IMG/VR virus record: IMGVR_UViG_3300025147_000031
Coordinates: 1-34,700 of that record
DNA: 34,700 nt
Direction: 5' to 3' (one strand)
From: a virus
A model generated the notes under the pieces. The model was not told where the DNA came from. It did not search any database and saw only the letters and a list, made by a program, of their open reading frames with translations. Of the stretch, positions 786 through 34,604 are shown one piece after another. A program made the position numbers and the translations under genes. The first letter of the stretch is position 1, and every line of letters begins with the position of its first letter.

Positions 786-800
786 TGATACCCTAAAGAC
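786..800 (+). promoter_or_regulatory. Putative late promoter, copy 1 (TGATACCCTAAAGAC)
   Basis: One of six near-identical copies of TGATACCCTAA found only in gaps before late modules. This copy precedes the 58-aa gene and the terminase genes. There is no consistent -35 box at a fixed distance in the set, so the element is probably read by a modified or accessory-guided polymerase. The promoter role is inferred from repetition and position. Confidence 0.6.
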
Positions 801-821
801 AACATAACTAGGAGCTACGAC

Positions 822-998
822 ATGAAAATTATGAAAGACAACAAAGAAATTAAAGACGCAAAGATTTACTATAATATGGGTGGCCAACCTGAGTTAGTCC
901 AAATCGAAGGCGTAAACTACGACATCAAAGCTTTTGAACTTATCGAGACGAAAGACCAAGTCAAAACCAAAGACGTTAAAGAGACAAAGAAGAAATAA
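822..998 (+). CDS. Small basic/acidic 58-aa protein before the small terminase
   Basis: ATG 822 follows GGAG at 811 with ideal spacing and is the first gene behind the late motif at 786. The product starts MKIMKDNKEIKDAKIYYNMG and ends in a run of alternating Lys and acidic residues. A similar layout, with a short gene whose centre reads VQIEGVNYDIKAFELIE, is not one I can assign to a family. A protein of this size and charge directly before terminase could be a minor packaging factor, but there is no motif to prove it. It ends three bases before the next start. Confidence 0.65.
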   Translation: MKIMKDNKEIKDAKIYYNMGGQPELVQIEGVNYDIKAFELIETKDQVKTKDVKETKKK

Positions 999-1001
999 AA
1001 G

Positions 1002-1520
1002 ATGGCTGGCGGTAGACCATTGAAGTTTGAATCAGTCAAAGAGTTACAACTCAAGATTGACGCTTACTTTGATGAGTGCGACCCACACCCAGAGTTAAAG
1101 GTTAGTTACGAATACAGCCAGATAACCGTCACAAAGAAACGCAAAGATGGAACTGAGTACGAATCATTAGAAGATGATAGGTCAGTTAAGCCCACATCGA
1201 AAGAAGAATGGGTAGTATCGTATCAGAAACATTACACTATTACTGGCCTAGCTAACTTCTTAAATACGAGCCGAGAGACACTTATAAACTATGAGAAACG
1301 TGACGAGTTTTTTGACACTATAAAAGCGGCCAAGGATAGAGTTGAAGAACAGTGGGAAAACTTGTTGATAGGATCTAATGCCACTGGCCCTATATTTAAC
1401 CTCAAGAATAACTACGGTTGGCGAGATAAGACAGAGCAAGAGATAAGCAACCCTGATGGTTCACTCAACCCATACAATGCTTTGACGGCTGAAGAACTAC
1501 GCAAATTAGCTGACAGATAA
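1002..1520 (+). CDS. terS: Terminase small subunit
   Basis: 172 aa, typical for the family. The N-terminus AGGRPLKF followed by a VKELQLKIDAYFDEC helix is the usual opening of small terminases of this type. A helix-turn-helix-like stretch (YTITGLANFLNTSRETLINYEK, residues about 85-105, read in two halves) would bind the packaging site. The C-terminal part contains the family hallmark GPIFNLKNNYGWRDK near residue 130-145. The subunit forms a ring that recognises phage DNA and loads the large subunit. The gene sits four bases after the preceding small gene, so it is probably coupled to it, and 90 bases before the large subunit gene. Confidence 0.9.
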   Translation: MAGGRPLKFESVKELQLKIDAYFDECDPHPELKVSYEYSQITVTKKRKDGTEYESLEDDRSVKPTSKEEWVVSYQKHYTITGLANFLNTSRETLINYEKRDEFFDTIKAAKDRVEEQWENLLIGSNATGPIFNLKNNYGWRDKTEQEISNPDGSLNPYNALTAEELRKLADR

Positions 1521-1610
1521 CTCATGTATGATATATTCTTGATGACTTGGTGCGAGAATATACGGCTCAGTATAATCCAACATACAAATCTAACGTCAAG
1601 GCTGATATAA

Positions 1611-3005
1611 ATGACTGAAATACCAGAATATGTACAACGTGAAGCTAAAAAAGAACTCGCTAGACGTTTCTTCTACGACTATTGCCAATATCGTTATCCA
1701 AAGCTATATAAAGACGAACGAACTTATCTAAAAGAAGTCTGTGATAAAATCCAAGCCTTTGTTGAACAGAACGACAAACGCTTCCTTGTCATCAATCTGC
1801 CACCACGCTTTCTAAAGTCGCTCACTGGCACTTGTCTGGTCGAGTGGCTATTTGGTTTAGACCCATTATTAAAAGTTATGACTGGCTCTTATAATGAGAA
1901 GCTATCATCAACCTTTGCTGGTAAAGTTCGAGACACGATTGATGAGCAACCCTCAAAAGGTGTTGAAGTTTATAATAACTTATTCGCTAAGACTAAAGTA
2001 AAGTACGGCCAAGCTAGTAAATCACTCTGGGCATTAGAGGGCAGTGGTCAAGACAACTATCTAGCCACCTCACCCACTGGAACGGCTACAGGTTTCGGTG
2101 CTAACTATATAATCCTAGATGATATTATTAAAAACGATACCGAGGCTTACAATCAATCAGTTCTAGACGGTCACTTCGATTGGCTGGCTAATACTATGTT
2201 GTCTCGTACTGAGGGCGATAACTGGAAAGTGATTGCGATCATGACACGCTGGGCTAAAGATGACCTTGCTGGTCGTATTATTCAACACTATGGCGATTTA
2301 GTCGAAGTCATTACTTTTAAGGCTGTCCAAGATGACGGCTCAATGCTTTGTGACGGTATACTGACCAGAAAAGACTACGACATTAAGACTAAAGAGATGA
2401 ACCCCGATATTGTCGAGGCTAACTACAATCAAAAGCCGATAGATGTTAAAGGCCGTCTATATCATACCTTTAAGACCTACAGCGAAGCCCCTGCTGGCCA
2501 AGTAGTTAAGAAGAATTACACCGATACTGCCGATAAAGGTACTGACTTCTTATGTAGCGTGAACTGGGAAGAACACGATGGTAATGTTTACCTAACTGAT
2601 ATTTATCATAGCGACAAGGCGATGGAAGATACTGAACCGGAAACTGCCCGAATGATTTATAAAGGTGGTATCAACGAGGCTACTATCGAAAGCAATAACG
2701 GTGGTCGTGGCTTTGGTAGAAATGTTAAACGTATTATCAGTGATACCTACGACAGTAATAAGACCGTCTTTATCGAGAAAAACCAAACATCTAATAAAGA
2801 AGCACGTATCTTGTCATCGAGTGCATGGGTTCAAGAACACGTCTTTATGCCCGATGATTGGGAGACCAAATACCCAGAGTTCTATGCACAGGTAATGGCT
2901 TATCAACGTAAAGGAAAGAACGCTCACGATGACGCTTGTGATGTATTGGCTGGTATTTACGAGTTAGTTACTAGTGGCAATGTTACAGAGTTTAGCTTTG
3001 AATAA
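1611..3005 (+). CDS. terL: Terminase large subunit (packaging ATPase and nuclease)
   Basis: 464 aa, a normal length. The ATPase half has a Walker A-like PPRFLKSLT at residues 64-72 and a Walker B strand YIILDD at 166-171, in the order expected. The nuclease half has acidic clusters typical of an RNase-H fold: DTADKGTD at about 305-312, TIESNNGG near 358 and AHDDACD near the C-terminus. It powers DNA into the prohead and cuts the concatemer. An in-frame TAA directly before 1611 fixes the start; the ribosome site is poor (AAGGCTG), so translation may rely on a short overlapping upstream frame that ends here. The late motif copy 2 follows 15 bases after the stop. Confidence 0.95.
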   Translation: MTEIPEYVQREAKKELARRFFYDYCQYRYPKLYKDERTYLKEVCDKIQAFVEQNDKRFLVINLPPRFLKSLTGTCLVEWLFGLDPLLKVMTGSYNEKLSSTFAGKVRDTIDEQPSKGVEVYNNLFAKTKVKYGQASKSLWALEGSGQDNYLATSPTGTATGFGANYIILDDIIKNDTEAYNQSVLDGHFDWLANTMLSRTEGDNWKVIAIMTRWAKDDLAGRIIQHYGDLVEVITFKAVQDDGSMLCDGILTRKDYDIKTKEMNPDIVEANYNQKPIDVKGRLYHTFKTYSEAPAGQVVKKNYTDTADKGTDFLCSVNWEEHDGNVYLTDIYHSDKAMEDTEPETARMIYKGGINEATIESNNGGRGFGRNVKRIISDTYDSNKTVFIEKNQTSNKEARILSSSAWVQEHVFMPDDWETKYPEFYAQVMAYQRKGKNAHDDACDVLAGIYELVTSGNVTEFSFE

Positions 3006-3020
3006 ATTGACAACCTTTTG

Positions 3021-3035
3021 TGATACCCTAAAGAC
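3021..3035 (+). promoter_or_regulatory. Putative late promoter, copy 2 (before portal)
   Basis: TGATACCCTAAAGAC, preceded by TTTTG as in copies 3 and 6. A TTGACA occurs at 3007 but the spacing to the motif is only 14 bases and is not repeated at other copies. The portal ATG at 3038 begins three bases after this string and no Shine-Dalgarno sequence fits between, so the mRNA may be leaderless. Confidence 0.65.
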
Positions 3036-3037
3036 AT

Positions 3038-5065
3038 ATGAAAAATAAGAGTCTGATAAATAGATTTATAGCCCAAGTTGGCCGCACAATCAACAAATAC
3101 GAAGCCAATGGCAACAATCTTGGTCATAGTTTAAGTGCAACCGCTGTCAGTGGTCTTTTAGGCACTGGTGGAGCGCATATCAACGTCTTAGAAGAGTATC
3201 AAGGCTTTGCTTGGAAAGCTATCAACATACGAGCCGAGGTGCTGTCATCACAGGACTTATTCATTGAACGATTAGTTAATAAGAAATGGCAAAAAGATGA
3301 GATGCACGAGTTTAACGCTGTACTTGAGGGTGCAGTTGGACAACCTGACTTGTCAGATTTAATGTATGCTTATGAAGTTAATCAATGTCTATATGGTGAG
3401 TCATTCTGGTACTTTTCTAAAGGTGATAAATCTAGTAAGCCAATGGGTATCTATACACTAGACCCATCTTGCGTAACAGTTATGATTGATAGTAACAAAC
3501 GAGTGGCTGGTTACGTCTATCAAAAAGACGGTGATCGTATAGCCCTAGATATTGACGAAGTATTACATGACTTTATTTATGACCCTCGACATCCGTATCG
3601 TGGTACTGGCCCAATGCAGTCAGCTGGGTGGTTCGTCCGTTCAGCTCGCTATGTGAATACTTACGTTAATAACTTCCTAGAGAATAACGCTATTCCTGCC
3701 GGTGTAGTTGTGGCTAAAGGTACAGTCAATGATGATGACTGGAAACTATTTAAGACACAATGGACTTCACAGCATGGTGGGATTGATAATGCTGGTAAAA
3801 CTGGATTCGTTCGTGGCTCAGACCTCGACTTTGTAAAGACTGGACTATCACTTGGCGAAGTTGACTTTGAGAAGATGAAAAACACCTCACGTGATGATGT
3901 AATGGTAATGTTTGGTGTAAGCAAGCCAATGATGGCAATCTTTACTGATATTAACCGAGCCTCGGCTGTTACAGCAAGGCAGTTGTTTACTATTACTTTG
4001 ACTCAACCTGCTCTTATGAAACTAAGCCGTAAACTATCTAAGCGTGTTGCCCGTTGGTATGGTCTTAGCTTCCGTATCGGTTCCAGCAATCCAGTGCCAG
4101 AAGATGAAGATGCAAAACTAGCTACTTATGATAAAGGTATTGGCCGTTGGTTCACAGTCAACGAAGCACGTGCAGCTTATGGAATGGGAGCAATCGCTAA
4201 TGGTGATGTAATTGACAGCGCATTAAAGACAGTTGCTCCTGTTAAATCTATCGGCAAAGTTACAATCCGAACCAAAAGCAACAAGCATGAACTCAACTAT
4301 GAAATGAAAGAATCATTCAGAAGCAAGACCGAGGACATTCAAACCAAACACGAGCAAGCCTTTATCCAGAAGTCCAATCAAGTCTTAAAAGACCAAAAGG
4401 CTATGGTATTAGCCCAATTAGAACCCAGAAAGCTATTAGATGCCCATTTTGACGCTGCTGTAGAGGCTAAGAACCTTTCAGATGAAGTCTTACCTATCTT
4501 AATCGAATTAGCGGCCGTACAAGGGCAGTTAGCGGCTGAACTCGTGGGAAGTGCTGAATCAAGCTTTGTAATGACTGATGTGATGAAAAAATACGTGGCT
4601 GACTCCATCGCTAAAGCTTCATTAGCTTTTACAGAAGAAACTCAAGCCAAGATTGCTCAAGCGATTACCGAGGGCTTAACCGAGGGCGAGTCTGTCGCTA
4701 AAATAGGCAAACGAATCAACAGCATTTATGATGACGTACTTAACACTAAGACCCCAGGCTATCGTATTGAACGCTTAGCTCGAACTGAAGTTATTAAAAC
4801 CAGTAATGAAATCACCGAAGCAAGCTATAAACAGTCCGGTGTGGTTAGTAAGAAGGAACTTTTTAACAATCCTGGCGCATGTGAGTTTTGTGTAGCGTTA
4901 AGTGGTTCAATCGCACAACTTGGTGGAACGTTTGTATCAAAGGGTAGTACTATAACAGGGTCTAACGGTGGTACACGAGTAAATGATTACGAAGATATAC
5001 AACACCCTCCGATACATTGTAATTGCAAATGTGCGCTCCTTCCGATTATAGATGGGGCTGACTAA
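3038..5065 (+). CDS. Portal protein fused to a MuF/SPP1-gp7-like head morphogenesis domain
   Basis: At 675 aa this is far longer than an ordinary HK97-type portal of about 400 aa. Residues 1-390 carry portal features: the opening helices, the NQCLYGESFWYF strand, the PMGIYTLDP turn, and the SRDDVMVMFGVSKPMM stretch near residue 285. The C-terminal 150-200 residues look like the minor head protein of Mu F/SPP1 gp7 type: RLARTEVIKTSNEI, then FNNPGACEFCVALSG, and finally HPPIHCNCKCALLPI, with paired cysteines that could bind metal. In other phages these are usually two adjacent genes. The portal ring is the DNA gate at the unique capsid vertex; the MuF part is packaged or sits inside the head. 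ATG 3038 is the only sensible start. Confidence 0.9.
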   Translation: MKNKSLINRFIAQVGRTINKYEANGNNLGHSLSATAVSGLLGTGGAHINVLEEYQGFAWKAINIRAEVLSSQDLFIERLVNKKWQKDEMHEFNAVLEGAVGQPDLSDLMYAYEVNQCLYGESFWYFSKGDKSSKPMGIYTLDPSCVTVMIDSNKRVAGYVYQKDGDRIALDIDEVLHDFIYDPRHPYRGTGPMQSAGWFVRSARYVNTYVNNFLENNAIPAGVVVAKGTVNDDDWKLFKTQWTSQHGGIDNAGKTGFVRGSDLDFVKTGLSLGEVDFEKMKNTSRDDVMVMFGVSKPMMAIFTDINRASAVTARQLFTITLTQPALMKLSRKLSKRVARWYGLSFRIGSSNPVPEDEDAKLATYDKGIGRWFTVNEARAAYGMGAIANGDVIDSALKTVAPVKSIGKVTIRTKSNKHELNYEMKESFRSKTEDIQTKHEQAFIQKSNQVLKDQKAMVLAQLEPRKLLDAHFDAAVEAKNLSDEVLPILIELAAVQGQLAAELVGSAESSFVMTDVMKKYVADSIAKASLAFTEETQAKIAQAITEGLTEGESVAKIGKRINSIYDDVLNTKTPGYRIERLARTEVIKTSNEITEASYKQSGVVSKKELFNNPGACEFCVALSGSIAQLGGTFVSKGSTITGSNGGTRVNDYEDIQHPPIHCNCKCALLPIIDGAD

Positions 5066-5739: not shown

Positions 5740-5740
5740 T

Positions 5741-9098: not shown

Positions 9099-9110
9099 TT
9101 TGCTGTTTTG

Positions 9111-9125
9111 TGATACCCTAACTTT
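9111..9125 (+). promoter_or_regulatory. Putative late promoter, copy 3 (before protease and capsid)
   Basis: TTTTGTGATACCCTAACTTT. Unlike copies 2 and 4, about 75 bases separate it from the protease start. That leader can form a stem between TGTCTAC (9140-9146) and GTAGATA (9173-9179) with CCCATTAGGG inside, and also contains a short reading frame. Confidence 0.6.
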
Positions 9126-11326: not shown

Positions 11327-11400
11327 GTTAGAGACTGTACAATCAATTGATTATTGAAACAGCCCCGTAGCTCTAACTGCTGGGCTGTTTTAGTTAGAGG
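11327..11400 (+). promoter_or_regulatory. Leader with competing hairpins controlling the endonuclease start
   Basis: AAACAGCCC (11357-11365) pairs perfectly with GGGCTGTTT (11382-11390), followed by TTTAG, a terminator-like hairpin. Its loop contains CTCTAACT (11371-11378), which can pair either with GTTAGAG upstream (11327-11333) or with AGTTAGAG downstream (11392-11399); the latter overlaps the ribosome site AGAGG of the endonuclease gene. The same loop can thus hide or free the start. Pairing is seen in the sequence; switching is inference. Confidence 0.55.
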
Positions 11401-11404
11401 CAAT

Positions 11405-11944
11405 ATGAAACAATGCAGCATAGACGGTTGTATGACAACTCAAAAGTATCTTAGGTTAGGTCTCTGCCGTAGACATTATTTAGATGATAGGCTTACTGCC
11501 CATAGTATTAGCTACTCATATAATTATGGCCCGCTCTACCAAACATGGACTGATATGAGGTCAAGATGCCATGATATTAATAATAAAGCCTATCACAATT
11601 ACGGTGGTCGAGGCATAAAGGTTTGTAAACGCTGGGATAGCTTTGGCAACTTTCTAGCCGATATGGGGGATAAACCTACCACTGGGCACAGTATCGATCG
11701 TGTTAATAACAATAAAGGCTATAGTCCATCAAATTGCCGTTGGGCTACAAGGACAGAGCAGAATAGGAATAGAAGAGCCCCTAAGGATAATACATCTGGT
11801 GTAATGGGCGTTTCATTCGACAAGCGTAGTGGTAAATGGGTAGCTTATATTAGGGCAGGTGGTGTTTTGCACGGTCTAGGATACTATAATACAATTCCAT
11901 TGGCCGCAACTGCTCGCAAAGAGGGTGAACTCAGATACTGGTAA
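11405..11944 (+). CDS. HNH homing endonuclease with AP2-like DNA-binding domain
   Basis: 179 aa from ATG 11405, which has AGAGG at the right distance; an upstream in-frame TTG lies inside the leader hairpin. N-terminal CSIDGC and CRRHY form a zinc-finger-like start. The HNH core follows: MRSRCHDINNKAYHNYGGRG, KVCKRWDSFGNF, then GHSIDRVNNNKGYSPSNCRW with the catalytic His, ending in QNRNRR. Residues 130-179 (GVMGVSFDKRSGKWVAYIRA...) are an AP2-like domain for target recognition. Such genes are selfish elements that insert into intergenic gaps of conserved phage genes. It breaks the capsid-connector unit and brings its own promoter and leader. Confidence 0.92.
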   Translation: MKQCSIDGCMTTQKYLRLGLCRRHYLDDRLTAHSISYSYNYGPLYQTWTDMRSRCHDINNKAYHNYGGRGIKVCKRWDSFGNFLADMGDKPTTGHSIDRVNNNKGYSPSNCRWATRTEQNRNRRAPKDNTSGVMGVSFDKRSGKWVAYIRAGGVLHGLGYYNTIPLAATARKEGELRYW

Positions 11945-11965
11945 GTTGATAAAATGGTTCATATA

Positions 11966-11980
11966 ACATACCCTTATAAC
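11966..11980 (+). promoter_or_regulatory. Variant late promoter before the connector gene
   Basis: ACATACCCTTATAAC, followed by TATATG. Compare copy 5, GATACCCTAAACTTATAA then ACTATG. It keeps ATACCCT and the distance to the start codon and would restart late transcription behind the inserted endonuclease gene. Weaker match than the six main copies. Confidence 0.4.
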
Positions 11981-13664: not shown

Positions 13665-13669
13665 ATCTG

Positions 13670-13684
13670 TGATACCCTAAACTC
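13670..13684 (+). promoter_or_regulatory. Putative late promoter, copy 4 (before tail tube)
   Basis: TGATACCCTAAACTC, then ATATG: the ATG at 13687 lies immediately behind it, the same geometry as copy 2, again with no Shine-Dalgarno in between. Confidence 0.65.
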
Positions 13685-15377: not shown

Positions 15378-15386
15378 CTAATTTCG

Positions 15387-15401
15387 TGATACCCTAAACT
15401 T
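15387..15401 (+). promoter_or_regulatory. Putative late promoter, copy 5 (before tape measure)
   Basis: TGATACCCTAAACTT, nine bases after the T stop. The tape measure ATG is 23 bases after its first T, with no purine-rich ribosome site in between. Confidence 0.65.
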
Positions 15402-20348: not shown

Positions 20349-20356
20349 TAATTTTG

Positions 20357-20371
20357 TGATACCCTAAGCGC
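20357..20371 (+). promoter_or_regulatory. Putative late promoter, copy 6 (before fibre and lysis genes)
   Basis: TTTTGTGATACCCTAAGCGC, eight bases after the hub gene. The first ATG (20375) opens only four codons (MTIS), ending before the ribosome site of the next gene; it may be a vestigial leader. Confidence 0.65.
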
Positions 20372-20426
20372 ATAATGACAATAAGCTAAGAAACCCAGAT
20401 TATTTAATAAGAAAGAGGATAACGTC

Positions 20427-22948: not shown

Positions 22949-23179
22949 ATGTTCACAAAAACATTTTTAATCGATGCTTTGGAACGTGCAATCAAGACCT
23001 TTGCACAGACAATAGTAGCTTTAGTATTAGTCGTAGCCCCAACTATGGGTGAAGAGTTACTAGAGGTTAATTGGATACCTGTATTAGGAGTAGCTTTTAT
23101 AGCTGCTGTTATATCAATTTTGACAAGTATTGCTTCATCACTTACTGGAAATAAAAACTCAGCATCGTTGATTAAGTAA
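22949..23179 (+). CDS. r1t-type holin
   Basis: 76 aa. The pattern FLIDALERAIKTFAQTIVAL, then EVNWIPVLGVAFIAAVISIL and TSIASSL is that of the lactococcal r1t holin family: one membrane helix, a Trp-containing turn and a second helix. It makes membrane holes that release the endolysin. Overlaps the next gene by one base (TAATG). Confidence 0.88.
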   Translation: MFTKTFLIDALERAIKTFAQTIVALVLVVAPTMGEELLEVNWIPVLGVAFIAAVISILTSIASSLTGNKNSASLIK

Positions 23180-23382
23180 TGGAACGTATCGGTCAAACCC
23201 TCCTAGAGGAAATCGCCTTACTGCCAGAAAAAGACCACCAATACGTTAATATGACTGGGGTATTAGGTATGATTGCTACCGAGATGGTCGCTAGAGATGC
23301 CCACAATGACTGTTATATTTGTAAGAAAAAAGCTGACGAATATCAGGCTTATTTAGACGGTGGTGAAGACCCCAGAGACTAA
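23179..23382 (+). CDS. Unrecognised 67-aa protein after the holin
   Basis: Starts at the last base of the holin stop. Contains NDCYICKKKADEYQAYLDGG: a single CxxC in a helical, acidic protein, preceded by VLGMIATEMVARDAH. It shares layout with the following gene, which also has a CxxxC and a DYLDRYDN stretch, so the two may be distant copies. No membrane segment. Function unknown. Confidence 0.65.
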   Translation: MERIGQTLLEEIALLPEKDHQYVNMTGVLGMIATEMVARDAHNDCYICKKKADEYQAYLDGGEDPRD

Positions 23383-23383
23383 T

Positions 23384-23632
23384 ATGGAACGAGAACTTCA
23401 AAGTCTACCCTTTACCGAACTTGTCGCTTTGAAACTTACCGGCACTCCTGAACAAGCCCATCACGTTGAAATGGAAACACGTAGTCGCTATGCAGATTTT
23501 AGAGACTACCTAGACCGTTACGACAATCTAACCCCAGACCAAAAATGTGTCGCAGGGAGTTGTCTAAGCTATCGCATGGCACTTGGGGCTGTTAATCACG
23601 TAGTAACTAACCCATCGGATATTAGGTTCTGA
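23384..23632 (+). CDS. Unrecognised 82-aa protein, possible paralogue of its neighbour
   Basis: ATG 23384 directly follows the previous stop; an in-frame GTG at 23360 would overlap it and is less likely. The start MERELQSLPFTELVALKLTG recalls MERIGQTLLEEIALLPEK of the gene before, and KCVAGSC carries two Cys. Soluble and helical. Function unknown; late-unit position after lysis genes. Confidence 0.65.
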   Translation: MERELQSLPFTELVALKLTGTPEQAHHVEMETRSRYADFRDYLDRYDNLTPDQKCVAGSCLSYRMALGAVNHVVTNPSDIRF

Positions 23633-23635
23633 CTT

Positions 23636-24085
23636 ATGTCGGATATGAGTTACCCCGTCAATGAGTACGGAGTAGCTCTGTCCAGTTACGAATTGGGCTA
23701 TAGTGAACCAACTGACCCAGAACGTCAAACAAACATAAATCATCTACAATGGATTGAGAGAATATACAGAGTCGTCGGCAAGGGCGCTCTTTTTATATGT
23801 TTTAGAGACCTCAAATGCTTACAAGAACCAATGTACATGGATGAACACCAAAGCCTACACGATACATTCTCCCAACCTAAAATGCCAACCCCAGCCCAAG
23901 CCTATGAAGAAATTGAGCGAGCGCAACTAAATGGCGAGTGTTTCTCTAGGCGTATGTCAAGAAAAAAACGTGAACAGATGGGATACGTTGCTATCGGTGG
24001 TTATGCCCAGATACCTATAACAGATGAAAGGCTGTTGGCCTGTAAAAAAGACTGTGATTTTATAATAAATAGTAGATGGAATTAG
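23636..24085 (+). CDS. Unrecognised 149-aa protein
   Basis: ATG 23636 lies three bases after the previous stop. Contains four Cys spread over the protein (ALFICFRDLKCLQ, LNGECFSRR, LLACKKDCDFI) and a basic stretch RRMSRKKREQMG that could contact DNA. The end overlaps the start region of the next gene. Cysteine content and basic patch would suit a DNA-binding regulator, but no helix-turn-helix or zinc-finger spacing is clear; unassigned. Confidence 0.65.
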   Translation: MSDMSYPVNEYGVALSSYELGYSEPTDPERQTNINHLQWIERIYRVVGKGALFICFRDLKCLQEPMYMDEHQSLHDTFSQPKMPTPAQAYEEIERAQLNGECFSRRMSRKKREQMGYVAIGGYAQIPITDERLLACKKDCDFIINSRWN

Positions 24086-24093
24086 GAGTTGAA

Positions 24094-24297
24094 ATGACAC
24101 GATCAAACATGGAAATAAGTTATACTGAGATAAGCCCAGAAGTTTTAGTTAATCGGAATAACGAACTAATCACTTTACTTGAAATACCTTGCCATAAAGA
24201 ACGAGCCGATAGACTTAAACGTGAACTAGCCGAAGTCTCATTTGAAATTATGCAGAGAGTGCGTGCAGGTGAGCTTGATATTGAGATGACAGACTAG
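24094..24297 (+). CDS. Unrecognised 67-aa acidic helical protein
   Basis: I choose ATG 24094, which has AGGAG five bases upstream, rather than ATG 24076 inside the previous gene. The body (VNRNNELITLLEIPCHKERA, then DRLKRELAEVSFEIMQRVRA) is a helical hairpin. The last 20 codons contain the -35 and most of the spacer of the RNA promoter at 24275-24303. It is the last gene of the late unit. Confidence 0.65.
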   Translation: MTRSNMEISYTEISPEVLVNRNNELITLLEIPCHKERADRLKRELAEVSFEIMQRVRAGELDIEMTD

Positions 24298-25581: not shown

Positions 25582-25610
25582 TTGCAATATATCAACCATT
25601 AGCGTACAAT
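25582..25610 (+). promoter_or_regulatory. Early promoter 1 with CATTAGCG spacer element
   Basis: TTGCAA, 17 bases ending CCATTAGCG, TACAAT. It stands before the Rad52-type gene. Shares the spacer element and -10 with the promoters at 32423 and 33826. Confidence 0.8.
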
Positions 25611-25645: not shown

Positions 25646-26380
25646 ATGGCACAAGTAAAAGAAATAGCAGAACAGTTATCAGAACCGTTTGATCCACAGG
25701 ATATTGAATGGCGAGTTCAACAGGCTGGTGAAGCCAATGGTAAAAAATGGGCTATGGTTTTAGCCTATATAGATAATCGAGCAATCATGGGTAGACTAGA
25801 TAAAGTATTTGGTATTGCCGGTTGGCAGAACGAATATCAACCGTTACCTGATGGCGGAATAATTTGTGGCATTAAAGCTAAAATAGGTGATGAATGGATT
25901 GTTAAATATGATGGCGCTGATAAGACTAATATTGAGGCTACTAAAGGTGGGCTTAGCAACGCTATGAAACGTGCTGGAGCGCAATGGGGTATTGGCCGTT
26001 ATCTATACGGACTTGAGGCAACATTCGTTAAGCCACAAGACGGCAAAGCACCAGACCACGATAATTACATATCTGGCTATAGTAAAGACTTTGGCAAATA
26101 TTATTTTGAACGCCCACAACTACCTAGCTGGGCATTGCCAAAAGGCGCTAAGGTAGAAGTTACTAAGACCGAGACTAACCCTGAATGGTCTTATGACGAA
26201 CGAGACAAGCAATTAAAAGAAATAACAGCCGTCGGTATCCAACTAGGTTACGACATAGCAACACTTGATAAAAGAATAGCTAAACTAAATAATAGCAATG
26301 ATGCTAAATCACTATTAACTAACTTTCGTGAGATGATGAAAGCTGAAAAATCTAAAAAAGAGGAAGTACCATTCAAATGA
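25646..26380 (+). CDS. Rad52/Rad22-type single-strand annealing protein
   Basis: 244 aa. The N-terminal 150 residues show the family pattern: IEWRVQQAG, WAMVLAYIDNRAIMGRLDKV, FGIAGWQNEYQPLPDGGIIC, then TKGGLSNAMKRAGAQWGIGR and YLYGLEA. Such rings anneal single strands and serve phage recombination and replication. The C-terminal 70 residues are a helical, lysine-rich tail. It is the first gene of the early unit and behind the strongest early promoter, with GAAAGGA as ribosome site. As no polymerase or helicase is seen, this may be the central DNA-metabolism gene of the phage. Confidence 0.88.
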   Translation: MAQVKEIAEQLSEPFDPQDIEWRVQQAGEANGKKWAMVLAYIDNRAIMGRLDKVFGIAGWQNEYQPLPDGGIICGIKAKIGDEWIVKYDGADKTNIEATKGGLSNAMKRAGAQWGIGRYLYGLEATFVKPQDGKAPDHDNYISGYSKDFGKYYFERPQLPSWALPKGAKVEVTKTETNPEWSYDERDKQLKEITAVGIQLGYDIATLDKRIAKLNNSNDAKSLLTNFREMMKAEKSKKEEVPFK

Positions 26381-26592
26381 ACGACCATCACGACCAAGAT
26401 TACAACCCAGAGTTAGCACGAGACCTAGCCGAGATGACGCAACCCGACTACCCAGAGCTAAAGATATATAAAGGTGGCGATATACCACCAGAACTTATCT
26501 ACATAAATAGTAAGGCTTATTATATTGCTCACGTTACAGACGATGTAGACGGCCAAAGAACTGCTATTTTAGTAGTATGGTCGCCTTTCTAA
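26377..26592 (+). CDS. Unrecognised 71-aa acidic protein
   Basis: Overlaps the annealing gene by four bases (ATGA). The acidic N-terminus (NDHHDQDYNPELARDLAEMT) and the beta-like end (AYYIAHVTDDVDGQRTAILV) show no known motif. Coupled to the Rad52-type gene, so perhaps a partner in DNA metabolism; inference only. Confidence 0.65.
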   Translation: MNDHHDQDYNPELARDLAEMTQPDYPELKIYKGGDIPPELIYINSKAYYIAHVTDDVDGQRTAILVVWSPF

Positions 26593-26982
26593 ATGGACTT
26601 AAAGCAGACCCCAATCGAAGTGCCGGCAACGCTTGAGGGTATTACTCGCAAAAAGGATCGTTCGGTTTCGTTCCGGTTTAACTCATTACTTGAAGTATCT
26701 AACGCCGACTTTGGCGAAATGGATAAACTATTCCAATCAGTCGGCTACCTATTATTTGCCGAACGAAGTTTAACTAACGAAGATATACCTGATGAGGAAA
26801 TAGAGACCGATATATCTAAATCGCAATCAGTCCAATTAAGAGATGCTCTATGGGTACTTTATAAGGCTCGTGGCAATCGCACCGAGGATAAAGAACTATG
26901 GAACATCTTTTATAGAAAGCAAATGCAAGTGTTCAAAGCTAGAGTGCTAGATGAAGTCCACAAACTAGACGATACTAACTAA
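26593..26982 (+). CDS. Unrecognised 129-aa protein of the recombination unit
   Basis: Starts right after the previous stop with no clear ribosome site, so coupled translation is likely. N-terminal beta part (TLEGITRKKDRSVSFRFNSL), then an acidic, helical end rich in Lys/Arg/Asp (FYRKQMQVFKARVLDEVHKL). Genes with this shape often accompany single-strand annealing proteins in phages. No catalytic motif is seen. Confidence 0.7.
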   Translation: MDLKQTPIEVPATLEGITRKKDRSVSFRFNSLLEVSNADFGEMDKLFQSVGYLLFAERSLTNEDIPDEEIETDISKSQSVQLRDALWVLYKARGNRTEDKELWNIFYRKQMQVFKARVLDEVHKLDDTN

Positions 26983-28689: not shown

Positions 28690-28718
28690 TTGACGAAAGC
28701 ATTAGCGTATGCTAAGAT
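28690..28718 (+). promoter_or_regulatory. Promoter before RNA B, spacer contains the GCATTAGCG element
   Basis: TTGACG (28690-28695), 17 bases, TAAGAT (28713-28718). The spacer holds AGCATTAGCGTATGCT, an imperfect palindrome which includes the same GCATTAGCGTA as at 32423 and 33826 but shifted, so the element is conserved apart from the -10 box and is likely a protein-binding site. Confidence 0.6.
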
Positions 28719-28724
28719 GTTCAC

Positions 28725-28918
28725 ATAACCACAGTAGAACTGGGTTACCGAACCAAAAGCGATGAGATGATTAGAGCCTCACACCGTACGCTACAAGGTA
28801 AATCGCACCACATTAACAATTAAGCGTAGCTGACTGGCGAGATGGTAATAACGGCTCGAGCAGTTATAAGCTATTACGAAGGGTGCAAGTGCCTTCCTCG
28901 TCAGCCACATACGCTTAA
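28725..28918 (+). ncRNA. Structured RNA B, about 190 nt
   Basis: Begins behind the promoter at 28690. First part: GGTT/AACC hairpin and a GCGAT/ATCGC-closed arm up to about 28805. Second part: TTAAGCGTA (28820-28828) pairs with TACGCTTAA (28910-28918) and GCTGAC (28829-28834) with GTCAGC (28900-28905), 15 pairs in all; inside GTAATA (28845-28850) pairs with TATTAC (28872-28877) and AAGG with CCTT. The core CTGACTGGCGAGATGGTA (28830-28847) recurs in RNA A. No gene of useful length lies here. The 21-codon gene at 28944 follows, so it could also act as a leader. Confidence 0.65.
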
Positions 28919-29009: not shown

Positions 29010-29018
29010 GAGAACTGA

Positions 29019-29150: not shown

Positions 29151-29151
29151 A

Positions 29152-29795: not shown

Positions 29796-30049
29796 TGAAA
29801 CTAGGTGTACAAATAATCAAAGAAAACTGGATGGAATCAATGGTCAGACGAGCCGAGGAAAGTCTAAGCACCCTTACTATCCGTAAACCAGTGGTAAAGC
29901 ATATACCGATTGAAGTATGGACTGATATTGGCGGTCAAGGACTTATAAGTTTATCTAAATGGTTCCCCTGTGAAGTAAGAAACTCAGGTGGCAAAACATA
30001 CTTAGTAACAACAATAAGTCATATAAGTATAGGATTGGAGAATAAGTAA
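29795..30049 (+). CDS. Unrecognised 84-aa protein
   Basis: ATG 29795 overlaps the transglycosylase stop by one base and has GGGAG nine bases upstream; ATG 29780 lies inside the previous gene and is less likely. Helical start (VQIIKENWMESMVRRAEESL), then beta strands with VVKHIPIEVWTDIGGQGLIS. No motif known. Overlaps the next start by one base. Confidence 0.65.
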   Translation: MKLGVQIIKENWMESMVRRAEESLSTLTIRKPVVKHIPIEVWTDIGGQGLISLSKWFPCEVRNSGGKTYLVTTISHISIGLENK

Positions 30050-30081
30050 TGACTATTAACGAACAAACAAAGGAGAGCAAG

Positions 30082-30663
30082 ATGGGCAAAACTTATGAAG
30101 TCTTAAAGCCTCTAGTCAATGCCGAAGTTGGTACTAAACTAAAACATTTATCTAGCACTCCATATCAGACAGCTGGTTTATACACCGAAGACCATAAGAT
30201 TATTGTATTGTGGTGTCATATTGATACGGCTATTGAGCAAGGTTTTATTATAGGAGCAGTTATGACAGAAGATAGTAATGAGCTATCCAAAGCAATCAAA
30301 AAAGCATTTACAGATAACGATATGACCGAAGATGGTTGTAGTGATTATGAGGATATTGAGTTATTTGATACAAAGCAAGTAGTCGATGACATTATTGCCT
30401 ACGTTCAATCTAACTATATTCTAAAATCAGAATCAGACAATTCCGTTGATGAAGCAGAAAAGTTTAATTACGATTTTGGATATAAATGTGGCGTAAATGA
30501 GATAACCATGAGTGGCGATTATATTCTAAAATCAGATGTAGAGTGGATAATAATCGGTGAAGATGAACCACAGACAGAAAATGGGTTATTACCTGATCGA
30601 GTTGATAGACGTAATCAACTCCGAGCAGAACAACGTAACCGTCTAAAAGAAAGTAGTAAATAA
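30082..30663 (+). CDS. Unrecognised 193-aa acidic protein
   Basis: ATG 30082 has AAGGAG six bases upstream; an in-frame ATG 30049 overlaps the previous stop and would add 11 residues that contain this ribosome site, so I prefer 30082. Two copies of (N/D)YILKS(E/D) and an acidic middle (DGCSDYEDIELFDTKQVVDD) are seen; the end is basic (RRNQLRAEQRNRLKESS). No family recognised. Confidence 0.65.
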   Translation: MGKTYEVLKPLVNAEVGTKLKHLSSTPYQTAGLYTEDHKIIVLWCHIDTAIEQGFIIGAVMTEDSNELSKAIKKAFTDNDMTEDGCSDYEDIELFDTKQVVDDIIAYVQSNYILKSESDNSVDEAEKFNYDFGYKCGVNEITMSGDYILKSDVEWIIIGEDEPQTENGLLPDRVDRRNQLRAEQRNRLKESSK

Positions 30664-30664
30664 T

Positions 30665-31060
30665 ATGACCAAACCTAAGACTGTAGTAGATATACCAGAA
30701 ATTAAGCGTAATCCAAAACACTACTATGCTATAAGTTGTGAGCATATATGTACTGTACTATTGGATGAATACATAATGAAGAAAGCAAATAAACTCCTCT
30801 TGAAATATAGAAATGAAATGAATGGGTTACTTTCTAATAATACAGAACATTTAATAGAGCAAAATTGGGCGTTAGCATATCCGAATAAAGAACAAACATC
30901 TTTTTATAGTTCTAATCCAATAAAAGAATATCAAGTCTATACACAGCCATTTACTACTAGAAAAGTTGATAATATCTTTGAAGGAATTGGCGAATATAAA
31001 ATACACGATAGAGATGTTATAGATGTGGTTAAAAAGATTATGGAAAGTGAGCAATTATGA
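30665..31060 (+). CDS. Unrecognised 131-aa protein
   Basis: Starts two bases after the previous stop, without a clear ribosome site, hence probably coupled. AT-rich, with a lysine-rich helix (DEYIMKKANKLLLKYRNEMN) and a C-terminal helix (HDRDVIDVVKKIMESEQL). Base composition is richer in A/T than the late genes, as are the neighbours to 31060. The stop overlaps the first 15-codon mini-gene. Confidence 0.65.
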   Translation: MTKPKTVVDIPEIKRNPKHYYAISCEHICTVLLDEYIMKKANKLLLKYRNEMNGLLSNNTEHLIEQNWALAYPNKEQTSFYSSNPIKEYQVYTQPFTTRKVDNIFEGIGEYKIHDRDVIDVVKKIMESEQL

Positions 31061-31104
31061 CCTTAGTTAATACAGACGATAAGAAAGTAAGGGGTATAAA
31101 ATGA
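31057..31104 (+). CDS. 15-codon mini-gene, copy 1 (MTLVNTDDKKVRGIK)
   Basis: ATG overlaps the previous stop by four bases (ATGA), and its own TGA overlaps the next ATG (31101), so it links two genes. The sequence recurs almost unchanged at 31689, giving MTLVNTDDKK in both. Conservation at peptide level and matching couplings argue that it is translated; its role may be a leader for reinitiation at the gene behind it. Confidence 0.6.
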   Translation: MTLVNTDDKKVRGIK

Positions 31105-31685
31105 GTAAAGAATATATTAAGTTCAAACTAACAGACGAGTTCATAACATTTTGGGGCGGTAAGTTATTCCGCATTGAGGCAACCGCATCATTTGGTGATG
31201 TAGAAAAAGGCGACAAGGGCGGTTATGTAGAAAAAGCAGAAAACCTATCTAATGAGGGCGATGCTTGGGTCTCTGGCAATGCTCAGGTCTATGGCAATGC
31301 TCGGGTCTCTGGCGATGCTCAGGTCTCTGGAGATGCTCAGGTCTCTGGAGATGCTCGGGTCTCTGGAGATGCTCAGGTCTCTGGAGATGCTCGGGTCTCT
31401 GGCAATGCTTGGGTCTATGGCAATGCTCAGGTCTATGGCAATGCTTGGGTCTATGGCGATGCTCGGGTCTCTGCAAAGAAAGCATTTAATAAAGGTTGGT
31501 TCATCGGCGGTGATGATACAGAAAAGATTACCAGAATTGAAGACCAAATGGGTAATGATTACTGGAAAACACAATATGTATTGGGTGACTACGAGATTAA
31601 CGATATTGAACCAGCAGAAGAAAAAGCTACCCACCCTAAAGAAATTGTGATTGACGGTGCAACTTATATTCTGAAGGATAAATAA
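31101..31685 (+). CDS. Hexapeptide-repeat left-handed beta-helix protein
   Basis: 194 aa. Residues 53-124 hold twelve six-residue turns of the form G(D/N)A(Q/R/W)V(S/Y), a left-handed parallel beta-helix. N-terminal 50 residues (KEYIKFKLTDEFITFWGGKL, then RIEATASFGDVEKGDKGGYV) match a fold common to phage proteins of this type; the C-terminal 70 residues are mixed alpha/beta with a final IVIDGATYILKDK. No acetyltransferase residues are visible. Flanked on both sides by the 15-codon mini-genes. Possible roles include a DNA mimic or scaffold for other proteins, but none can be shown here. Confidence 0.85.
   Translation: MSKEYIKFKLTDEFITFWGGKLFRIEATASFGDVEKGDKGGYVEKAENLSNEGDAWVSGNAQVYGNARVSGDAQVSGDAQVSGDARVSGDAQVSGDARVSGNAWVYGNAQVYGNAWVYGDARVSAKKAFNKGWFIGGDDTEKITRIEDQMGNDYWKTQYVLGDYEINDIEPAEEKATHPKEIVIDGATYILKDK
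31257..31472 (+). repeat. Twelve 18-base tandem repeats coding the beta-helix
   Basis: Period 18 bases (core GGTCTCTGGAGATGCT with variation), in frame with the gene. High DNA-level identity suggests recent gain or loss of turns by slippage. The repeats also open long chance frames on both strands, which are not genes. Confidence 0.9.
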
Positions 31686-31688
31686 GTT

Positions 31689-31736
31689 ATGACCTTAGTC
31701 AATACAGACGATAAGAAAGAAAGGAATATGAAGTAA
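31689..31736 (+). CDS. 15-codon mini-gene, copy 2 (MTLVNTDDKKERNMK)
   Basis: Identical to copy 1 at 10 of its first 10 residues. Starts three bases after the hexapeptide gene and its TAA overlaps the next ATG (TAATG, 31736). The DNA repeat runs from two bases before the ATG to the AAGG that serves as ribosome site for the next gene. Confidence 0.6.
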   Translation: MTLVNTDDKKERNMK

Positions 31737-32032
31737 TGAGCAAATCAACAGTTATATATGAACGAGTATGGTATTTGCCGACATCACTTGTCGCAAAAGA
31801 TGGAAGCGTTACGTTGATAGGGCATATATTCAAGATAAAAAGAACCGACACAGGCAACATCCTTTTAGATAACAAAACCAATGCGTGGGATTTTCCTAAC
31901 GATGGTGAGATGGTAAGTTTCATCAGAAAGAATAAGGCGTGTGCGTTGCCCTACGAAGCTGAGGGAAACCCAAGGTTCATTCCCACCAGAATACGAAACA
32001 TGGTTAAAAAGTTTAAGGTAGAGGATAAGTGA
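31736..32032 (+). CDS. Unrecognised 98-aa protein
   Basis: Coupled to mini-gene copy 2 by one-base overlap. Starts MSKSTVIYERVWYLPTSLVA; both this and the hexapeptide gene start MSK and both lie behind a mini-gene. Beta-rich, basic at the C-terminus (RFIPTRIRNMVKKFKVEDK). No family seen. Confidence 0.65.
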   Translation: MSKSTVIYERVWYLPTSLVAKDGSVTLIGHIFKIKRTDTGNILLDNKTNAWDFPNDGEMVSFIRKNKACALPYEAEGNPRFIPTRIRNMVKKFKVEDK

Positions 32033-32042
32033 GGTAGTGATA

Positions 32043-32420
32043 ATGAGTGATGACGATATTCTAAATAAAGGTGGGACACAAGACGATGTTGATGAATATG
32101 CACGACAAAATGGTGCAGAACTAACTAAAGAAGATTTTATCACCCCTGTTATGACAGACGATATAGATAAACGTTTAGATAAGATACTAAAAACATTTGC
32201 TATCACTATAAATGGCGACAGTAAGACAGGTTTCACATTAGACACATCAGACGCCAAGCAAGCTATTTTACTAGCTCATCAAAAAGAAGTAGAGCGGATA
32301 ATCGGGGAAAATGTAGAATTATCTGGCAAAAACGATATAGCAATCAACTTGCAGATTACTATAGAAAACAGTTTACGAACCGAACAACTTCTACGAGCTA
32401 ATATAAAAGAAGATCGATAG
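32043..32420 (+). CDS. Unrecognised 125-aa acidic protein
   Basis: ATG 32043 has GAGG eight bases before; an in-frame GTG 32037 is possible. Starts MSDDDILNKGGTQDDVDEYA, helical and acidic, ending in a long helix (TIENSLRTEQLLRANIKEDR). No motif known. Last gene of the unit; the next early promoter starts two bases after its stop. Confidence 0.65.
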   Translation: MSDDDILNKGGTQDDVDEYARQNGAELTKEDFITPVMTDDIDKRLDKILKTFAITINGDSKTGFTLDTSDAKQAILLAHQKEVERIIGENVELSGKNDIAINLQITIENSLRTEQLLRANIKEDR

Positions 32421-32422
32421 GC

Positions 32423-32451
32423 TTGCATATACTCAAGCATTAGCGTACAAT
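32423..32451 (+). promoter_or_regulatory. Early promoter 2 with GCATTAGCG spacer element
   Basis: TTGCAT, 17 bases ending AAGCATTAGCG, TACAAT. Same as the promoter at 33826 in both boxes and the last 10 bases of the spacer. Confidence 0.85.
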
Positions 32452-32484
32452 CTTACTTAGTAATAAGTAGAAAGGATTACAAAA

Positions 32485-32724
32485 ATGAGTAGCACAATAC
32501 AGGTTTATACAAACGACGTAGTTATAGAGGAAGTAACAGGTCAACGCTTATTCGGAACAGTTGACGATGTACAAGTAACTATTAAAGACGTAGACGCTTC
32601 CGACATCGTACCTGAGTTTATAGTTAGTGAACTATTAGACGCAATCGACTTTGCCGACATCGAGAAGTATTACCTTGCTCGCAAAGGTGATAGTGATGAC
32701 GAAGATTTCAGTGGGGCTGAGTAA
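32485..32724 (+). CDS. Unrecognised 79-aa acidic protein
   Basis: AAAGGA ribosome site, first gene after early promoter 2. Beta-like N-terminus (STIQVYTNDVVIEEVTGQRL) and a strongly acidic C-terminus (ARKGDSDDEDFSGAE). Such small acidic early proteins often bind host factors or mimic DNA, but this is a guess from composition. One-base overlap with the next gene. Confidence 0.65.
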   Translation: MSSTIQVYTNDVVIEEVTGQRLFGTVDDVQVTIKDVDASDIVPEFIVSELLDAIDFADIEKYYLARKGDSDDEDFSGAE

Positions 32725-32984
32725 TGAGCCAGGCAACGGAACTACTAAAAGAGTTCAAAAGGCGTGGCCAGATATTCAACTACGAACTTGCAACCGATTA
32801 TCATTTGCTACAGTACGTTGGTAGAATCTACGAATTACGCCACACATACGGTGAAACGATTGAGTGTCTACCAGACCCCGATGGCCGCAAAGGTGTGAAC
32901 TTATACGTTTATCACCCTAAACAGCCTACACAGGCCACCCTAATAGCCGTAGAGCCACTAAAACAAGAAAGGCGATATGAATAA
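32724..32984 (+). CDS. Unrecognised 86-aa protein
   Basis: Coupled by one-base overlap. Starts MSQATELLKEFKRRGQIFNY; the middle (YHLLQYVGRIYELRHTYGET) and the end (NLYVYHPKQPTQATLIAVEP) look like a small winged-helix-like protein: helices then a beta wing with RGQIFNYELA...GRIYELR, the pattern of helix-turn-helix proteins used by some phages. Possible DNA-binding regulator, moderate support only. Confidence 0.65.
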   Translation: MSQATELLKEFKRRGQIFNYELATDYHLLQYVGRIYELRHTYGETIECLPDPDGRKGVNLYVYHPKQPTQATLIAVEPLKQERRYE

Positions 32985-33175
32985 TGCCCGACACAGCCGA
33001 AACAGAAACCATAAGAAAAAATATGAAACTAATTGACAACAGGATAAAAAGCCTTAGCGATGAACTTCTATGTTACAGCATAGACGCAATCAGCCTTGAA
33101 CTAGACCGACGTTCCGACAAGCACATAAAATATCACGTAGAAAGATTACAGAGGATAAATCAATGCAGATACTAA
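32984..33175 (+). CDS. Unrecognised 63-aa helical protein
   Basis: Coupled by one-base overlap. Helical hairpin (IRKNMKLIDNRIKSLSDELL, then ISLELDRRSDKHIKYHVERL). No motif known. Ends by overlapping the next small gene by 13 bases. Confidence 0.65.
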   Translation: MPDTAETETIRKNMKLIDNRIKSLSDELLCYSIDAISLELDRRSDKHIKYHVERLQRINQCRY

Positions 33176-33306
33176 CAAAATTAAAAATAAGAGTGGCTAT
33201 TAAGAAATACAACAAGCGTATAGCCCTGCAAATCTCTGACTATATGGGCTGGCCGGAAGAAGAAGTGATGAACGTGATCAATTTAATGGAAGATAATAAG
33301 AGGTAA
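33163..33306 (+). CDS. Unrecognised 47-aa basic protein
   Basis: ATG 33163 has AGAGGA seven bases before, inside the end of the previous gene. Starts MQILTKLKIRVAIKKYNKRI, then YMGWPEEEVMNVINLMEDNK, so a basic helix followed by an amphipathic helix. Its last codons form the ribosome site AGAGGTAAG of the next gene. Confidence 0.6.
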   Translation: MQILTKLKIRVAIKKYNKRIALQISDYMGWPEEEVMNVINLMEDNKR

Positions 33307-33308
33307 GT

Positions 33309-33536
33309 ATGAGCTACAAAGAAACAATGATTGCCAAGTACGGCAGTGAAGAATTATGGAAAGCCCACCTACGAGAAATCGCAGCTAAGGGCGGCGCTAA
33401 ATCATCTGGATACAAGTTTGGGCATGGCAAAGTAGACCCTAGCGTTGCCGGTGCTGCTGGTGGTAAAGTCAGCCGTAGGGAATACCCAAGTATCGCTGGT
33501 TATAAAGGCGGCAGGGTTAAACGCCCAAAAGCTTAG
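33309..33536 (+). CDS. 75-aa Gly/Lys-rich protein with KGG-type repeats
   Basis: AGAGG ribosome site. N-terminal helix (SYKETMIAKYGSEELWKAHL), then GG-containing basic repeats (AAKGGAKSSG, GAAGGKVSRREYP, AGYKGGRVKRP). Similar KGG-rich short proteins, some like bacterial stress-induced repeats, occur in phages; the role is not settled. Probably binds nucleic acid via its basic turns. Confidence 0.7.
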   Translation: MSYKETMIAKYGSEELWKAHLREIAAKGGAKSSGYKFGHGKVDPSVAGAAGGKVSRREYPSIAGYKGGRVKRPKA

Positions 33537-33545
33537 TGATATAAT
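33517..33545 (+). promoter_or_regulatory. Sigma-70-like promoter before the AUU mini-gene and RNA C
   Basis: TTAAAC (33517-33522), 17 bases, TATAAT (33540-33545). Lies partly in the end of the KGG gene. It lacks the CATTAGCG element. Confidence 0.5.
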
Positions 33546-33596
33546 TATAAACAGACACCAACACAACAAATACATTCAACTAAAGAGGAGTATTAC

Positions 33597-33689
33597 ATTA
33601 GTACACTTGAAAAGTTTAACCTGACATTTGAATATGATCTAAATCTAAGAGACGTAAAGAGTCGAATAAAGAAGCGCACAATCAAGTAA
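33597..33689 (+). CDS. 30-aa peptide with apparent AUU start
   Basis: AAAGAGGAG (33582-33590) is followed after six bases by ATT 33597, which opens a frame to TAA 33689 reading (M)STLEKFNLTFEYDLNLRDV then KSRIKKRTIK. No ATG/GTG/TTG alternative in this frame. Protein-like composition with a basic end and a canonical ribosome site make translation likely. Lies directly before RNA C. Confidence 0.5.
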   Translation: MSTLEKFNLTFEYDLNLRDVKSRIKKRTIK

Positions 33690-33697
33690 CTTAACAT

Positions 33698-33824
33698 CAT
33701 AAATGGTATCAATAAGGGATAAGGTCAGAGGATGGCGACGACTAATAAGTTGCGGCATGACCCTTACTCCACATAGGGAATGTACTTATAACTCCAGCTG
33801 ACCCCCTTACTAATACCATTTATG
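33698..33824 (+). ncRNA. Structured RNA C, about 127 nt
   Basis: CATAAATGGTAT (33698-33709) pairs with ATACCATTTATG (33813-33824), TAAGGG (33713-33718) with CCCTTA (33804-33809), GGTCAG (33723-33728) with CTGACC (33798-33803): 24 perfect pairs in three stacked blocks. Inside are hairpins CGACT/AGTTG (near 33738-33751) and CCCT/AGGG (near 33761-33778). GGTCAGAGGATGG recalls the CTGAC...GAGATGG core of RNAs A and B. No coding frame. It ends one base before the next promoter. Confidence 0.7.
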
Positions 33825-33825
33825 C

Positions 33826-33854
33826 TTGCATATTCCTAAGCATTAGCGTACAAT
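33826..33854 (+). promoter_or_regulatory. Early promoter 3 with GCATTAGCG spacer element
   Basis: TTGCAT, 17 bases ending AAGCATTAGCG, TACAAT; its -35 follows directly after the closing stem of RNA C. Drives the two exported proteins behind it. Confidence 0.85.
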
Positions 33855-33911
33855 GTGACTTAGATATGAAACGAATATAAAATAATAATCATATCGAAAG
33901 CGAGTTATAAA

Positions 33912-34079
33912 ATGAAAAAAACCTATATCGTATTACTAACAGCTCTAGTTGTGATGTTATCTTACTTTGCTATAGCTAGTCACTATCAGTATTTAGAGAC
34001 TCCAAAAGGTTGTCATCTGGTAAGTGGTTACGAAGTCCCCAAAGGGCAAACCCCGCCAGAAGTATGGTCTTGTTATTAG
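33912..34079 (+). CDS. Small exported 55-aa protein with two cysteines
   Basis: ATG 33912 follows GAAAGCGAG. N-terminal signal peptide or anchor (KKTYIVLLTALVVMLSYFAI), then a 30-residue outside part with Cys39 and Cys54 (GCHLVSGY, VWSCY) that could form one disulfide. No family known. Coupled in one unit with the CAP protein three bases on. Confidence 0.6.
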   Translation: MKKTYIVLLTALVVMLSYFAIASHYQYLETPKGCHLVSGYEVPKGQTPPEVWSCY

Positions 34080-34082
34080 GGT

Positions 34083-34589
34083 ATGAAACAAATCACTCAC
34101 AAAATTATAACCATCACATTAGTAATTATCATTGCTATATTAGTTGGTTATATTTTAACTCCGACTAAAACGATAGCCCCAGCACAGCGTATAGACAGCA
34201 TTAGTATAAATGCCGATGAACAAACCGTCTTAGAACTTGGAAACGATTACAGGGCTTCTAAACAGCTTACAAAGCTATCTATCAACAGTCAACTAATGAA
34301 ATCAGCCCAAGCAAAAGCCGATGACCTATGTAAATCCGGCAACTGGTCGCACACAGACAGCCAAGGCCGAGAGTTCTATAGTTTTATACAGGCAACTGGT
34401 TATAAATATGAACACGCTGGCGAAAATCTAGCCAAAGGTTACGCTACCCAAGAACTAGCTTTTAAGGCTCTAATAAATAGCCCAACTCACCTGGAGAATA
34501 TCGTCGGTGATTATAAAGAAATCGGTATCGGTATTAGCGATTGTAACGGCCAAAACTACTTAGTAGCGCATTACGGCATTCAAAAATAG
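34083..34589 (+). CDS. Membrane-anchored/exported CAP (SCP/PR1-like) domain protein
   Basis: 168 aa. Residues 6-27 are a signal anchor (HKIITITLVIIIAILVGYIL). Residues 50-166 form a CAP domain: LGNDYRASKQLTKLSINSQL, GNWSHTDSQGREF with the metal-binding His, YKYEHAGENLAKGY with the family HAGENLA signature, and SPTHLENIVGDYKEIGIGI with the second His. CAP proteins act outside cells, but their biochemical role in bacteria is unclear. A CAP domain in a phage early unit is unusual and points to remodelling of the host envelope or exclusion of other phages. Confidence 0.85.
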   Translation: MKQITHKIITITLVIIIAILVGYILTPTKTIAPAQRIDSISINADEQTVLELGNDYRASKQLTKLSINSQLMKSAQAKADDLCKSGNWSHTDSQGREFYSFIQATGYKYEHAGENLAKGYATQELAFKALINSPTHLENIVGDYKEIGIGISDCNGQNYLVAHYGIQK

Positions 34590-34604
34590 TGATAACCTAA
34601 TAGC
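34590..34604 (+). promoter_or_regulatory. Variant late promoter at the right end
   Basis: TGATAACCTAATAGC, one base different from TGATACCCTAA in the core, with the ATG of the last gene 17 bases after its first T. It would start the late unit that continues over the window edge to the left-end genes. Confidence 0.4.

Follow-up and report, generated by a model that had tools for sequence, protein, structure and literature searches.

The window, meaning the whole stretch of DNA analyzed, comprises 34,700 bases of IMG/VR virus record IMGVR_UViG_3300025147_000031. It is siphovirus-like, with terminase, portal, protease, capsid, and tail genes, and further genes code for an Erf-like annealing protein, a DNA cytosine methylase, and a CAP protein. 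There are no end repeats in the window, so a stretch is possibly missing and one end may be absent. A search of named phages for near DNA returned no match to the window, and neither the capsid nor the major tail protein matched named phages; the portal has only 20–27% identity to theirs. Bacterial genomes were scanned twice for relatives of the capsid and portal, and none were found. Uncultivated relatives were collected using the portal, capsid, and major tail protein. Portal identity to the window is 73% in L043, 57% in L044 (hereafter G001), 55% in L049, and 53% in L026, capsid identity is 58% in L027 and L028, and major tail protein identity is 57% in L062. G001 is a near-complete relative of 36 kb that is missing a short stretch around the protease. 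Late-region gene order is common to the window and its relatives, and those that bear the motif described below belong to a clade of phages known from metagenomes alone.

Six exact copies of TGATACCCTAA, first reported in a sequence-only reading of the window, are present at 786, 3021, 9111, 13670, 15387, and 20357, all on the plus (late) strand. Exact copies are absent from the minus strand, and a reversed-pattern control also gave zero. The 9-base core, TGATACCCT, occurs six times in the forward and zero times in the reverse direction, against 0.17 expected under an order-2 Markov model. Two variants had been listed as well. The one at 34590 (TGATAACCTAA) differs by one mismatch. At 11966, four relatives have intact sites at the same place, but the window sequence, ACATACCCTTA, has three mismatches, lacks the TG, and is the weakest site. 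A T-rich TTTTG, TCTG, or TTCG, said to precede four copies, precedes five. The 11-mer originally described is also not the true unit of the repeat. Its final AA and the T-run lie outside the conserved part, which in relatives takes the form TRTGNTA(C/A)CCT; the last AA is phage-specific, and L026 has CCG at that place. Positions of the redefined element and of the early promoters discussed below are listed in Table 1.

Table 1. Predicted late and early promoters in the window and early promoters in relative G001
Feature	Sequence	Position	Strand	Predicted RNA start	Downstream gene or detail
Late promoter	AATGATACCCT	784..794	+	about 801-802	ATG 822, Shine-Dalgarno AGGAG
Late promoter	TGTGATACCCT	3019..3029	+	3036-3037	portal ATG 3038, predicted leaderless
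Late promoter before protease/MCP	TGTGATACCCT	9109..9119	+		ATG 9200 with own Shine-Dalgarno
Degenerate late promoter	TAACATACCCT	11964..11974	+		head-tail connector ATG 11984
Late promoter	TGTGATACCCT	13668..13678	+		ATG 13687, predicted leaderless; opens 43-aa gene ahead of major tail protein
Late promoter	CGTGATACCCT	15385..15395	+		tape-measure ATG 15410
Late promoter after tail gene	TGTGATACCCT	20355..20365	+		four-codon ORF at 20375 (ATG ACA ATA AGC TAA), main gene beyond
Late promoter	AGTGATAACCT	34588..34598	+		ATG 34607, predicted leaderless; gene runs off window
Early promoter	TTGCAA-17-TACAAT	25582..25610	+		precedes Erf-like gene
Early promoter	TTGACG-17-TAAGAT	28690..28718	+		
Early promoter	TTGCAT-17-TACAAT	32423..32451	+		called by sequence
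Early promoter	TTGCAT-17-TACAAT	33826..33854	+		called by sequence
Early promoters of G001	TTGACT or TTGCAA; TAATAT or like	G001rc 18234, 20404, 22864, 24864			

A motif search on the window and related phages, the check originally proposed, found the element at corresponding late-gene starts, where it is kept although the surrounding DNA has diverged. It occurs at the gene before the small terminase in the window (784), L043 (1184), and G001 (G001rc 29798), at the portal in the window (3019) and L043 (3231), and at a small gene ahead of the portal in L026, L049, and G001. The head-tail connector has an intact element in L026 (9507), L062 (1292), G001 (G001rc 2032), and L027 (2226), and a degenerate one in the window. 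Both the gene before the major tail protein and the tape measure have the element in the window, L026, L062, and G001, and the gene after the tail has it in the window (20355) and G001 (G001rc 11289). Support is weaker at the protease, where the window copy (9111) is far from the gene and the sites in relatives are far or decayed (L026, TGATACCCA; L049, TGATACCTT; L028, TGGTAACCA).

Word counting with no presupposed motif across 108 late junctions from seven phages gave TG.T.CCCT and TG.TA.CCT as the top words, found at 16–18 junctions in six phages against 0.2–0.4 expected. Most terminase relatives at about 50% identity (L008–L019) have no motif, so its presence cannot be predicted from the terminase alone. 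The motif is also absent from L065, which has only distal tail genes in common with the window (28–36% identity), and thus follows the capsid/tail module. Exact 16-mer matches were identified in 12 viral contig stretches and were mostly single and without context. A few motif matches fall inside genes, such as those at G001rc 505 and 8052. Intragenic matches are what a chance or codon-usage repeat would produce, but the number of copies, their bias to one strand, and their conservation at orthologous junctions rule that explanation out for practical purposes.

Two small late-region genes lie next to these sites. A 58-aa gene at 822-998, which directly follows the first late promoter, has conserved counterparts in L043 and G001 (53%). 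Between the capsid and the connector, a small gene is found in three phages (window 11354-11944, 196 aa; L026 9038-9454; G001rc 1065-1649) and is absent from L027 and L028; in the window it adjoins the degenerate promoter at 11966. The 196-aa protein has no match in NCBIfam, and the gene is perhaps a homing endonuclease.

Alignment of 29 sites produced the consensus T-R-T-G-N-T-A-(C/A)-C-C-T, with a YWA start-like triplet at the expected start, 6–8 nt on. These sites were collected by their core, so part of the core conservation in the logo follows from the selection itself; their flanks, spacing, and positions were not used for picking them. TRTG occupies −17 to −14 (T in 21 of 29 sites; R, T, and G in 28 each), and of these the TG belonged to the search core and T(−17) and R(−16) did not. 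The purine at −16, in 28 of 29 sites, has a P value of 1e-7. No column upstream of −17 exceeds 0.45 bits, which indicates that there is no conserved −35 box and extends to the full alignment what had been reported for the window. Between TG and TA the base varies freely, as it does in TRTGnTATAAT: the window and L026 have A, G001 has mostly T, and L027 and L028 have G. Compared with TATAAT, only T−12, A−11, and T−7 of the hexamer match, and −10 to −8 are CCC or ACC. The CC at −9/−8 is invariant in all relatives and does not occur in the sigma-70 consensus. By its sequence, the element would be an extended −10 (TRTGn) promoter with the hexamer TACCCT (TAACCT in some) replacing TATAAT. Because the middle of the hexamer differs, it is a variant of the extended −10 class and not a plain member. 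The CC is its odd feature and suggests a helper protein.

A gene ATG lies 7–10 nt after the hexamer at 15 of the 29 sites (2.7% by chance, P = 1e-16), and Shine-Dalgarno sequences are absent from these genes. The Shine-Dalgarno match is shorter at motif-proximal starts (mean 3.1 versus 4.8 nt, P = 2e-5) in a comparison for which part of the late starts were hand-picked. Most genes inside operons carry a Shine-Dalgarno, and where the gene is 25–99 nt from the motif it is back in most cases. A transcription start immediately downstream of the motif would produce this distribution. The spacing and missing ribosome sites lead us to predict that the late messages of first genes are leaderless. Predicted starts fall within 10 bases of the motif, as had been anticipated, and the sequence supports the late-promoter role. 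Not all near starts are strictly leaderless, given ATG distances of 14–15 nt for the window's tape-measure site and for the site ahead of the portal in L026. The gene that follows the tail module seems to start at an ATA (20427), behind a Shine-Dalgarno-like GAGGA, and this ATA aligns with GTG in G001.

Early promoters of the −35/17/−10 type were identified in the window (n = 4) and in G001 (n = 4). Those of the window mostly pair TTGCAT or like with TACAAT and have AAGCATTAGCG or a near variant of it within the spacer, and those of G001 have AAGCTGTAG or AAACTGTAG there. None of the eight has CC in the hexamer; A, T, or G stands at −9/−8. The two phages, with different early genes, thus have the same two-class promoter design as judged from their DNA. 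The fixed block in the 17-bp spacer of each phage's early promoters (AAGCATTAGCG; AAGCTGTAG) may be an operator through which early genes are shut off.

Several features of the early region were noted separately. Non-coding stretches near the CAP gene in the window (33690-33825) and in L043 (255-425) form long capped stems, with folding far stronger than that of shuffled sequences (z −5.2 and −5.4). No Rfam family was found in the window, and these stretches are a possible phage structured RNA. About 200 gene-free bases (28720-28915) lie downstream of an early promoter and include a long stem at 28823-28915 (z −1.7). Positions 31101-31685 code for a YdcK-type beta-solenoid repeat protein with 18-base tandem repeats.

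As in the sequence-only reading, no phage RNA polymerase or sigma factor was recognized. No sigma-70 region 2 domain was found in the window, and no early protein of the window or G001 matched a sigma or polymerase family. The genes earlier nominated as activators, at 23179-24297 and 26377-26982, are not supported in that role: they have no significant BLASTP match in G001, which retains the promoter at the gene starts where the window has it. The only early genes recognizably common to the two phages encode the CAP protein and NinG-like proteins. Searches at the level of protein families recognized no gp39/AsiA-like protein. Model quality was too low for a fold search with either 61–480 (AlphaFold pLDDT 46) or 26593–26979 (AlphaFold pLDDT 60). 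L043 has a conserved counterpart of the 140-aa gene at 61–483 (56%), and G001 does not. An early 86-aa protein (32724-32984) weakly matches the winged helix family HTH_39 (E = 0.0015, short of the cut-off) and is a possible regulator. The simplest reading of these results would be that the box is recognized by the host's holoenzyme, with a small and rapidly diverging phage protein assisting or redirecting it.

We consider it likely that the repeat serves this phage and a clade of its relatives as their late promoter, a −35-less extended −10 element read by the holoenzyme. The motif, its conservation, its spacing, and the difference between the two promoter classes are observed in the DNA, and from them we infer promoter activity, a start site, and leaderless translation. 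The RNA polymerase holoenzyme would recognize TRTG together with the hexamer's TA---T and begin RNA synthesis 7–8 nt past the hexamer. Since many late genes open at this point, their messages would have a leader of 0–4 nt and no Shine-Dalgarno; units with a more distant gene would use a normal ribosome site. With early genes on −35/17/−10 promoters, the switch would be from −35-dependent to −35-independent initiation. It is quite possible, although we hold this step tentatively, that an early phage protein makes the promoters late, either by shifting sigma region 4 off the −35 box, as gp39 and AsiA do, or by aiding opening at the weak CC hexamer.

Plain reading by the primary sigma leaves the invariant CC at −9/−8 unexplained. 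The CC might mark a non-primary-sigma specificity in which an unrecognized small phage or host protein remodels the sigma region 2 reading and opening of the −10 box. We regard this as rather unlikely; if true, the late switch would work via altered −10 specificity and need neither a new sigma nor an upstream activator. Recognition by an alternative sigma, or by a sigma-like phage factor, dedicated to reading CCT in the hexamer would account for the retention of CC in all relatives and its absence from all eight early promoters, and for the finding that TRTGNTANNNT placed 6–11 nt before a gene contains CCC or ACC in 12 of 13 cases. The domain and family searches described above and the lack of any early gene recognizably common to both phages, apart from those for the CAP and NinG-like proteins, speak against such a factor, and we judge it improbable.

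Readings in which the element is not a promoter fare worse. Stoperator sites, of the mycobacteriophage L5 kind, are bound by the phage repressor, and a one-sided repressor site or operator near late starts would explain an asymmetric sequence with constant direction relative to transcription. It would not explain the fixed ATG spacing, the YWA start signal, or the TRTG match; no other conserved promoter block lies nearby, the element sits at the starts of late-gene units, and no phage repressor was recognized in the window. We give this very little weight. An RNA-level signal in late messages, such as a processing site or translation enhancer, would suit an element that adjoins many start codons without a Shine-Dalgarno. 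At W 786, W 9111, G001rc 29798, and other sites, however, the gene is 25–99 nt off and mostly has its own Shine-Dalgarno, and a translation signal is not expected at such distances; this reading is also highly unlikely. Under the preferred reading, a −35-less extended −10 promoter, the element provides a rule by which late transcription can be read from sequence across a clade of metagenome-only phages. Late operons and true start codons become callable (e.g., 11984 instead of 11954), and the invariant CC offers a direct test for a helper acting on the −10 region.

Phages of the T7, N4, SPO1, and phiKZ kinds encode their own polymerase or sigma, and none was recognized in the window. At the middle promoters of phage T4, AsiA diverts sigma region 4 and MotA takes part (PMC2613000, PMC7403470); the present element likewise has a −10 box without a usable −35 box, but no conserved −30 block like the MotA box and no AsiA family match were found. 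TRTGn extended −10 promoters of Gram-positive bacteria have the form TRTGnTATAAT (PMC2613000), which the element resembles in TRTG at −17 to −14, the free −13, T−12, A−11, and T−7, and from which it differs in having CCC or ACC in place of TAA at −10 to −8. In leaderless genes of Actinobacteria and Deinococcus-Thermus, a TANNNT box lies about 10–12 bp upstream of the start codon (PMC3160421, PMC12340547). The distance from −10 box to start (15 of 29 sites) and the missing Shine-Dalgarno are alike here, but the middle three bases of the bacterial box carry little information and those of the phage element are fixed. Most middle and late messages of Thermus phage phiYS40 are leaderless (PMC3594737), as predicted here from sequence; no relationship to that phage was found, and leaderless starts would be limited here to the gene that opens a unit. 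In Thermus phage P23-45, gp39 inhibits −35/−10 promoters, and the middle and late promoters are of the extended −10 type (PMC7403470). The window and G001 resemble this T. thermophilus phage in having early −35/−10 and late extended −10 promoters and differ in that no gp39-like protein was recognized and in the hexamer CC and leaderless junctions, which are features of the clade. A P23-45-like mode of working is therefore a likeness we infer and not an assigned membership of that kind, and it would place a −35-dependent to −35-independent switch, with predicted leaderless late messages, beyond the Thermus phages.
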